Origin: Planctomycetota bacterium
Lineage (GTDB): Bacteria; Planctomycetota; Planctomycetia; Pirellulales; PNKZ01
Direction: 5' to 3'
Assembly: GCA_018242585.1 (NCBI GenBank)
Contig: JAFEBQ010000008.1
Location: 57,494 to 121,493 of the forward strand
DNA length: 64,000 bases
Part shown: positions 10,249-48,042 of the stretch, piece after piece
Numbering within the stretch: the first letter of the stretch is position 1
Layout: each line of letters starts with the position of its first letter
The notes under the pieces: generated by a model
What the model was told of the DNA's origin: nothing
What the model saw: only the letters and a program-made list of their open reading frames with translations
Database searches by the model: none
Program-made: the position numbers and the translations under genes

Positions 10249-10295
10249 GGGTGGCCCAGCCGCTCGTCGGCTGGGTCGCGCAAGCGACAAGAAAA
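10249..10295 (+). repeat. Two-hairpin intergenic element, copy 3
   Basis: GGGTGGCC, then a stem CAGCCG/CGGCTG with a 5-base loop, then a second stem GTCGC/GCGAC and the tail aagaaa. Copies at 46714-46760 (reverse) and 46786-46833 share flanks and tail but have different, still complementary, stems. It sits just after the stop of the upstream gene at a convergent junction. Confidence 0.75.
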
Positions 10296-10420
10296 ATGAA
10301 AGGCTTTCAACGTGCGTAGAATGACCTGGAAAGCCGCTTGCGGCAAAGCTTCTTCTTGTTGCTACGCAATCCGACCGACAAGCGGCCGGGCCATTCTGTT
10401 TCGATTCTTTACAGGTCAGG

Positions 10421-46675: not shown

Positions 46676-46713
46676 GCGCTGCCCATCAAAGGGCTCGATC
46701 CGTGTCCATCGAG

Positions 46714-46833
46714 TTTCTTGTGGCTGCGCCACCCTGGTTGCGAGGCAACCAGGGCCACCCGAATGTGTGCCAATGCTTAAGCGCTGGGTGGCCTCGGTTG
46801 CAAAGCAACCGAGGTCGCGTCAGCGACAAGAAA
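46714..46833. repeat. Inverted pair of two-hairpin elements (copies 1 and 2)
   Basis: Copy 1 (46714-46760, reverse) and copy 2 (46786-46833, forward) share GGGTGGCC, a variable stem with 5-base loop, a second small stem and the tail caagaaa. The stem sequences differ but each pairs perfectly: CTGGTTG/CAACCAG and TCGGTTG/CAACCGA; second stems GTGGC/GCCAC and GTCGC/GCGAC. They lie between convergent genes. Confidence 0.85.
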
Positions 46834-46902
46834 CCATTGTTGTGCGCTCTCGAAGACCCACTGCTGCCGAAGGAAAACGCGCCTTTGCTCTTCGCGATTG
46901 CG

Positions 46903-48042
46903 TTAGCGTGCCGCTTCAAAGCTCGTCAACAGTTCGGTCACGCGCTGTTGGAACCGCTCGGGGCCGAAGGCGTCGAGCATCGCCTGGCGCAGGGCGTCGG
47001 GCCGATAGACCAACGGATGCGGGTGAGTTCTCTGGAGCAGTTGGACCGACGCCTCCGCAATGGCCGAGACATCGTGCGGATCGACCAACACGCCCAGTTC
47101 GCCCTGCTTCAAGGCGTCAACCGAGCCGTCCTGGTTTCCGGCCAGCACCGGCTTGCCGGAAGCCATTGCTTCGAGGAATACAATGCCGAAGCCTTCGCCG
47201 TTGCTGGGCATGGCAAACACATCGGCCAACCGGTAGTAATCGGCCAGTTCGGTGTCGGGAATGAAGCCGGTGAACGTCACGCAATCGGTCACCTTCAATT
47301 CGGCGGCCAGCCGCTCGAGTCGCCCACGCTCGGGTCCGCGGCCGCCGATGATGTAACGCACCCCGGGCACCGCCTGGCGAATGGCGGGCAGCGCGCGAAG
47401 CACCTGGTCATTGCCCTTGTACCGTTCGGTCTCGACCAGCCGGGCAATGGTCAACAACACCGGCTGGTCCGGCCGCAAGCCATGCCGGCGGAGCAGAAAC
47501 TCGGGCTTGGGGCCGAGTTGGAATTGCTCGGCCGCCAGCGTGTTGGGCAACTCGGTGATTCGCGATTGCTCAAACGGCAACTGGGTCAGCAGCCGCTGGC
47601 GCGTCACGCTGCTGACCGGCAACACCCGATCAGCGTTCAGCAGCGCCGGCCCCACGCGATCGCCGTTCAACTTCCAGACTTCAACCCCGTGAGCGACAAT
47701 CCAATAAGGAATCCCTAGCCGGCGTTTCAACAGCGCCGCCAACGGCGAGAAGTTCGCGTGTACCGAAATGATCAAGTCGGGCCGCTCGCGCAGCGCCAGC
47801 CAAGACGCCAACCCTGCAAATGCCGTGGTGCGCAAGGCCACGGGATAACCACCGGCCGTATGAAAACTGATCGAGCCGCGCTGGGCCGCGCCCCTTTCGA
47901 CGGGATCATTCTTGATGATCACGCGCGTCTGGCGCACTTGGCCGCATCCCTCCAGCGCCCGCAACAGGCACGCCGAGAACCGTTGGATGCCGCCGGCCGG
48001 GCCGGGCAAGTTTGGCAACCAAACGTGAAGCGTTTCAAGCAT
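46903..48042 (-). CDS. Glycosyltransferase family 4 (GT-B)
   Basis: 379 residues from ATG 48042. GT-B fold with two Rossmann halves: the N-terminal acceptor half has LPNLPGPAGGIQRFSACLLRALEG and IVAHGVEVWKLNGDRVGPALLNADRVLPVSSVTRQRLL. The C-terminal donor half has PVLLTIARLVETERYKGNDQVLRALPAIRQAVPGVRYIIGGRGPERGRLERLAAELKVTDCVTFTGFIPDTELADYYRLADVFAMPSNGEGFGIVFLEAMASGKPVLAGNQDGSVDAL. The GEGFGIVFLEAMA motif carries the EX7E pattern of GT4. Transfers a sugar from a nucleotide donor, probably in polysaccharide or glycolipid synthesis. No polysaccharide cluster surrounds it. Confidence 0.93.
   Translation of the reverse strand: MLETLHVWLPNLPGPAGGIQRFSACLLRALEGCGQVRQTRVIIKNDPVERGAAQRGSISFHTAGGYPVALRTTAFAGLASWLALRERPDLIISVHANFSPLAALLKRRLGIPYWIVAHGVEVWKLNGDRVGPALLNADRVLPVSSVTRQRLLTQLPFEQSRITELPNTLAAEQFQLGPKPEFLLRRHGLRPDQPVLLTIARLVETERYKGNDQVLRALPAIRQAVPGVRYIIGGRGPERGRLERLAAELKVTDCVTFTGFIPDTELADYYRLADVFAMPSNGEGFGIVFLEAMASGKPVLAGNQDGSVDALKQGELGVLVDPHDVSAIAEASVQLLQRTHPHPLVYRPDALRQAMLDAFGPERFQQRVTELLTSFEAAR

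Follow-up and report, generated by a model that had tools for sequence, protein, structure and literature searches.

GTAG- and GTGG-tagged REPs, REPtrons, and BIMEs are known, with Planctomycetes and Verrucomicrobia among their named hosts (PMC3733652); GTAG repeats have been reported in Planctomycetes (R. baltica) and, together with GTGG, in Verrucomicrobia (O. terrae) (PMC3733652, PMC6006769, PMC8266576). The repeats described here resemble the GTAG-tagged REP/REPtron systems of these papers in having GTRG immediately before a stem of 8 bp or more that pairs throughout, an intergenic location, inverted dimers with non-identical partners, and a RAYT gene flanked by the same repeats. Descriptions of GTAG-tagged REPs give a single hairpin, with or without a bulge, whereas here a second, separate GNA/GNNA hairpin and a conserved CAAGARR tail are present. 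Adding a second mini-hairpin, itself ultra-stable, to the known RAYT REP design is unusual and goes beyond the published REP rule (PMC6006769). The novelty of the two-hairpin design is limited by the double palindromic TIRs of TIRYTs and the double inverted repeats of Pseudomonas, which, in the part of the description drawn on here (PMC3733652), also place two adjacent palindromes at the ends of a tyrosine transposase gene. They are described there as REP units plus unrelated stem-loops, or as TIRs, and were compared by this text description, so that an overlap in sequence is possible. Insertion sequences of the IS200/IS605 family (IS608, ISDra2) share with our system the HuH/Y1 fold and hairpins recognised as single-stranded DNA.

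The DNA analysed here (the window) is a stretch of 64,000 nucleotides from a Planctomycetota genome of 5.57 Mb in 56 contigs. It holds copies of one unit, composed of a foot (GGGTRG), hairpin 1, hairpin 2, and a tail (CAAGARR). With a probability of roughly 0.9, we read these units as REP/REPIN elements that belong to a RAYT system and have two hairpins, because they form inverted pairs and flank RAYT genes in this genome and in others.

An earlier note had placed three copies in the window (Table 1). Their positions stand except for the end of the third, which lies at 10294 and not at 10295, and a fourth, decayed copy had been overlooked. The unit pattern matched twice in the window and not at all in 100 shuffles. 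Stem 1 pairs in all three copies, as had been noted, and is longer than was claimed; instead of the sequences first given, it consists of CCCTGGTTGC/GCAACCAGGG and CCTCGGTTGC/GCAACCGAGG in the first two copies, each with 10 bp and a 3-nt loop, and of CCCAGCCG/CGGCTGGG in the third, with 8 bp and a 5-nt loop. The CC that had been assigned to a shared 5' part, GGGTGGCC, belongs to the paired stem, the foot being GGGTGG. The pairing of stem 2 was seen correctly and its extent was not: the stems are TGGC/GCCA or TCGC/GCGA, 4 bp, rather than GTGGC/GCCAC or GTCGC/GCGAC. Stem 2 directly abuts stem 1, and the CAAGAAA tail, which had been recognised, comes next. Stem 1 lengths of 8–10 bp and loops of 3–5 nt in the window agree with the published REP stem rule, which asks for 7–20 fully paired nt and a loop of 2–5 nt, and the foot agrees with the GTAG/GTGG rule, which places it 0–2 nt 5' of the hairpin (PMC6006769).

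Table 1. Repeat copies and adjoining features in the window, with the coordinates of their parts.
Feature	Position	Strand	Foot	Hairpin 1	Hairpin 2	Tail	Full sequence	Score or remark
Right-end-type REP copy	46714..46760	-	GGGTGG, 46760-46755	46754-46732	TGGC-GCA-GCCA, 46731-46721	CAAGAAA, 46720-46714	GGGTGG-CCCTGGTTGC-CTC-GCAACCAGGG-TGGC-GCA-GCCA-CAAGAAA	71 bits, E 6.5e-18
Left-end-type REP copy	46786..46833	+	46786-46791	46792-46814	TCGC-GTCA-GCGA, 46815-46826	CAAGAAA, 46827-46833	GGGTGG-CCTCGGTTGC-AAA-GCAACCGAGG-TCGC-GTCA-GCGA-CAAGAAA	68.8 bits, E 2.7e-17
Spacer between inward-facing feet	46761..46785	.						25 nt; L035 upstream spacer 25-26 nt, sequence diverged
Sub-terminal sequence past right-end tail	46699..46713	-					CTCGATGGACACGGA	Common to both right-type L035 copies (alignment)
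Sub-terminal sequence past left-end tail	46834..46873	+					CCATTGTTGTGCG...CTGCCGAAGG	Common to L035 upstream region (alignment)
GCCG-subfamily REP copy	10249..10294	+	10249-10254	10255-10275	TCGC-GCAA-GCGA, 10276-10287	10288-10294	GGGTGG-CCCAGCCG-CTCGT-CGGCTGGG-TCGC-GCAA-GCGA-CAAGAAA	45 bits, E 1.5e-10
Decayed partner REP, TTGC type	10352..10396	-				CAAGAAG		Covariance model 26.5 bits, E 2.6e-05

The first two copies form an inverted pair, as had been stated, in a rare arrangement: the GGGTGG feet point inward, 25 nt apart. Both copies have counterparts at a RAYT gene of the same genome (C27:272175, L035), which carries a feet-inward pair upstream, with stems as in the window, and a further right-type copy downstream. 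Specifically, the copy at 46714–46760 is of identical type to the right-type copies flanking this gene, and the copy at 46786–46833 to the left copy upstream of it. The suggested kinship with REP/BIME elements was thus borne out by a REP-associated transposase gene flanked by the identical pair. The window pair aligns to the L035 upstream region from about 46699 to 46873 (about 170 bp), extending past the repeats themselves. No transposase gene follows the window pair at 46714–46833; on the gene map, the next gene beyond the left-end sub-terminal sequence ends at 46903 and is not a RAYT. Judging by the alignment, we propose that this pair may represent the right-end/left-end junction found upstream of L035, as a relic or copy that has no RAYT. 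In this it differs from REPINs and BIMEs, since it is feet-inward and matches a RAYT upstream junction rather than a REPIN. At the other locus, the covariance model finds the decayed copy, and the GCCG-subfamily copy is therefore half of an inverted pair, a feet-outward REPIN at 10249–10396 (L009).

Further copies proved numerous, and their stems pair. The strict pattern of hairpin 2 plus tail matched 194 times genome-wide, against 13 in a backward control, and the genome-wide covariance-model search proposed in the earlier note returned at least 147 matches at E < 1e-6. The model (R1) was built from copies of the same length, as MAFFT placed the stem gap wrongly when stem lengths were mixed. 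In about 130 sampled stretches of the genome around known copies, we found 182 distinct copies and none in reversed sequence; overall, the genome carries about 180–190. Among the sampled copies, hairpin 1 occurs in 95 different sequences and hairpin 2 in 50. GGGTGG or GGGTAG stands directly 5' of stem 1 in 170 of the 182 copies, and GGATGG in nine. Foot and tail variants are linked within this genome, GGGTAG going with CAAGAGG and GGGTGG with CAAGAAA. The linkage is absent across species, and we do not claim guide/cleavage-site covariation from it.

Location and orientation, which the earlier note had proposed to count, were also consistent among the copies. None of 110 clusters lies within a gene (105 intergenic, five at stretch edges), where 72% of random positions fall in genes on the simple codon-usage map used for this count. 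Among two-copy clusters, 67 of 70 are REPINs, with GTRG feet outward and tails inward; the feet-inward ones number two in the sample, the window pair and the pair beside L035. The orientation preference of copies relative to genes is weak, and we do not claim one. As in known REPINs and BIMEs, two inverted REPs travel as a unit: the CAGGTG subfamily contributes 24 REPINs of 152–156 bp with a mean identity of 86%, while their 100-bp flanks are 20–27% identical. A search of a plasmid collection gave no match. Four features had lain outside the view of the earlier note: the transposase, the partner copy that starts at 10352, the fact that ordinary pairs are oriented the other way round, and the motif in the hairpin 2 loop.

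Feet-outward inverted pairs, with a fixed length in one subfamily, are also what classical MITE ends moved by a DDE transposase could look like. The remaining evidence makes that origin scarcely credible: none of 68 REPIN pairs has a target duplication of at least 4 bp, the ends are local hairpins with stems that differ from end to end instead of long inverted repeats, and the flanked gene is a Y1/HuH RAYT. The REPIN organisation without target duplication fits copying by a HuH enzyme and argues against a DDE transposase. Of the two explanations the earlier note had offered, the one in which copying preserves the structure is upheld.

The genome contains ten Y1_Tnp genes, and three of them (L035, L036, L037) are its only strong RAYT relatives. 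The three genes are HuH, Y1, single-copy, and diverged (51–60% identical), and each is flanked by, or adjoins, units, L036 and L037 carrying units with their own hairpin 1 types. All three proteins score 105–111 bits with NF047646 (REP-associated tyrosine transposase; cut-off 80) and contain the HuH motif PDHVH and the tyrosine motif YMHxNP. Across 42 relatives, H61, V62, and H63 are invariant and Y132 is nearly so. The combination DHVH / WQ / YMHxNP exactly equals none of the consensus sets listed for TnpA-Y1 subclasses 2.2–2.8 (PMC6006769). The predicted structure matches E. coli TnpA-REP (4er8) best (Z 17.5, rmsd 2.2, 143 residues aligned), in agreement with the sequence, which is also closest to this protein. 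Kinship with Thg1, suggested by fold matches with Z about 10, was rejected, and these matches are read as a common fold only.

The presence of a Y1_Tnp family gene between the ends, with a catalytic fold in common, could also point to active IS200/IS605 insertion sequences, with the units as their ordinary left and right ends. We consider this extremely unlikely. The ends here carry a GTRG foot and are inverted rather than direct; the proteins fall below the cut-off of the IS200 model itself and above that of the REP-transposase model; the predicted structure compares less well with IS608 (Z 12.7) than with TnpA-REP; and three single, diverged RAYT genes face ends in about 190 copies.

Two observations concern individual Y1_Tnp loci. 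The left unit of L037 (1360–1410) has a 6-bp hairpin 2, TTCGTC-GCA-GACGAA, compared with the TCGC/TTGC stems of the dispersed copies. At L038 (G000:C21:14324-14563), a Y1_Tnp/RAYT-like domain lies in frame within a 1263-codon open frame that resembles a type I restriction R subunit or a helicase, and repeated DAASSR peptides adjoin the domain. For the GCCG and CAGGTG/CGATGG subfamilies, both abundant, the assembly contains no cognate RAYT. In another planctomycete MAG (L117), a RAYT has CCCAGCCG ends, and the GCCG and CAGGTG/CGATGG copies, including the window REPIN at 10249–10396, may therefore be orphans of a lost transposase.

Covariation in both stems, as the earlier note had claimed, is strong. 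In 133 distinct aligned copies from other species, both sides changed together in 13 of 14 pairs, with a covariation score of 0.611, against 0.161 in shuffles and at most 0.04 with slid partners; the score is partly helped by alignment to the model, and a small MAFFT seed alignment agrees with it. In the genome itself and across the phylum, the changes are almost wholly Watson-Crick. Among 1688 stem 1 pairs of the genome, 1658 are Watson-Crick, 12 G-T, and 18 mismatched; the corresponding numbers for stem 2 are 763, 4, and 2. As G-T is about as rare as other mismatches, it enjoys no special tolerance.

The loop of hairpin 2 follows the form cGNAg or cGNNAg in 165 of 176 copies of the genome, 26 of 28 from relatives in the order, and 69 of 84 from named species, compared with 222 of 5021 background hairpins (4.4%). 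GNA/GNNA loops on G-C stems are extraordinarily stable DNA mini-hairpins (Hirao and co-workers; PMC4686876). Hairpin 2 shares its C-G closing pair and GNA/GNNA loop with the DNA mini-hairpins of Hirao and Yoshizawa (cited in PMC4686876), d(GCGNAGC) and d(GCGNNAGC), which are known from synthetic DNA and as components of aptamers. Position 3 of the tetraloops is a pyrimidine in 25 of 31 cases in the genome and in 7 of 7 from named species, which runs against the RNA GNRA rule and fits the DNA GNNA rule. From the lack of G-T tolerance, the DNA-stable loops, and the pyrimidine-3 tetraloops, we infer that both hairpins are single-stranded DNA structures.

Covariation of this strength would ordinarily bring to mind a structured RNA, either an sRNA or a 3' mRNA stabiliser or terminator, whose folding left the compensatory changes. 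The units are indeed intergenic and often lie closely downstream of stop codons, and CTTG-type hairpin 1 loops would be stable in RNA too. Nevertheless, an RNA origin is very unlikely: an Rfam search of the window gave no match above the gathering score, the U/T run of a terminator is absent after the stem, G-U is as rare as other mismatches, the tetraloops prefer a pyrimidine where GNRA has a purine, and the association with a DNA-acting HuH transposase is conserved. We argue that the strong covariation reflects DNA structure, and it cautions against calling RNA from covariation alone.

The two hairpins of the single-stranded DNA reading behave differently with respect to the protein. The distance between hairpin 1 arms correlates with RAYT protein distance (Mantel r 0.46 left and 0.52 right, 0 of 2000 permutations being as high), a correlation that may partly reflect shared descent, whereas the corresponding values for hairpin 2 arms are 0.14 and -0.04. 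Hairpin 1 is also common to both ends of an element, with an edit distance of 0.16 between left and right compared with 0.44 between elements; for hairpin 2 the distances are 0.32 and 0.39. In tracking the RAYT and being common to both ends, hairpin 1 behaves as a recognition site should, and these sequence comparisons suggest that it gives the cognate RAYT its specificity. Identical hairpin 1 arms occur at both ends in one REPIN only of 68, and the inner parts agree.

The same hairpin 2 stem is found at both ends in none of the 68 REPINs of this genome, where 17 would be expected; this difference may mark left from right. By duplex and MFE values, end-to-end pairing of the DNA has a mean of -32.7 kcal/mol for native REPINs; identical ends would bring it to -71.5 kcal/mol, while the local folds amount to -25.7 kcal/mol. 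Native REPINs still gain from end-to-end pairing, and the end difference therefore weakens it without abolishing it. The loop motif and the pattern of stems make hairpin 2 a candidate for a stable cap free of sequence constraint, a role that we put forward tentatively. In an equally tentative picture of the whole, these units could form a REP class of their own, with a bipartite single-stranded DNA substrate in which hairpin 1 is the handle that the RAYT reads and hairpin 2 is a GNA/GNNA clamp beside the tail, its stem swapped between the ends so that they are told apart and pair less. If true, a transposase would here be exploiting the d(GCGNAGC) motif in nature; the literature search for the GNA/GNNA mini-hairpin as a transposase substrate found no such link.

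In the mechanism that we propose, both hairpins would fold once the strand becomes single-stranded. The RAYT would bind the GTRG foot and hairpin 1, the latter setting specificity, and its tyrosine would cut beside the unit, so that REPs and REPINs move and the target is not duplicated. As a cap, hairpin 2 would fix the fold on the 3' side and the position of the conserved tail, and differing hairpin 2 stems would weaken pairing between the ends. Homology makes mobilisation of the REPs by the RAYT on single-stranded DNA probable. No precise empty site was found, the neighbouring genus g4 being searched, and we therefore infer movement from the dispersed near-identical copies. In G006, the gene downstream of L074 was found repeat-free, and the intergenic DNA is unalignable, so that no junction is readable.

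The outer ends of the 68 REPINs show a weak preference for C/A at position -3 and for T at position -1 relative to the GGGT foot, possibly a cleavage or target preference. About half of the CAGGTG REPINs lie within further conserved flanks, TAGAGCAGTTCTCAGAACACTGTCGCGT ... AGACGCTAGAACGTGGTGAGACCCGCTCTA (L001, L004, L013, L015, L027, L029, L045, L054). These flanks look like an outer imperfect inverted repeat, so that the CAGGTG REPINs may be nested in a larger element of about 210 bp.

The unit is present in 22 of 44 genera among the sampled relatives. Among 199 genomes of the phylum, the unit occurs in 10, a close RAYT in 14, and both in 7, compared with about 0.7 expected. A scan of GTDB genomes for the RAYT yielded 53 loci, mostly in Planctomycetota, with some in Desulfarculales and one in a verrucomicrobial MAG. 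Two-hairpin units occur at 0.83 per kb within 700 bp of a RAYT gene, compared with 0.085 per kb elsewhere. At the RAYT loci of other species, left and right units are inverted with a conserved CAAGAGG-like tail, and the RAYTs of all three groups have GGGTRG-HP1-HP2-CAAGARR ends in which the stems differ. Variants with altered parts keep the same design, for example tandem G.A mismatches in hairpin 2 (L108, L136, L140). Planctomycetota and the groups beyond thus provide a natural experiment in which hairpin 1 varies with the protein and hairpin 2 does not. To our knowledge, the RAYT-REP systems studied in vitro are single-hairpin ones only. Because hairpin 1 tracks the protein while hairpin 2 keeps one loop motif, a small protein (171 aa for the L035 RAYT) and short oligonucleotides would allow the roles of foot, specificity stem, and cap to be tested one by one.

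Two of the other loci differ in the arrangement of their units. In Planctomycetes bacterium Pan216 (CP036279.1, L126), units of the same orientation with a period of about 62 nt lie on both sides of the RAYT gene as a tandem REP array. At L099, the RAYT gene has feet-inward pairs, almost spacer-free, on either side; the rare feet-inward arrangement may therefore be a hallmark of RAYT neighbourhoods.
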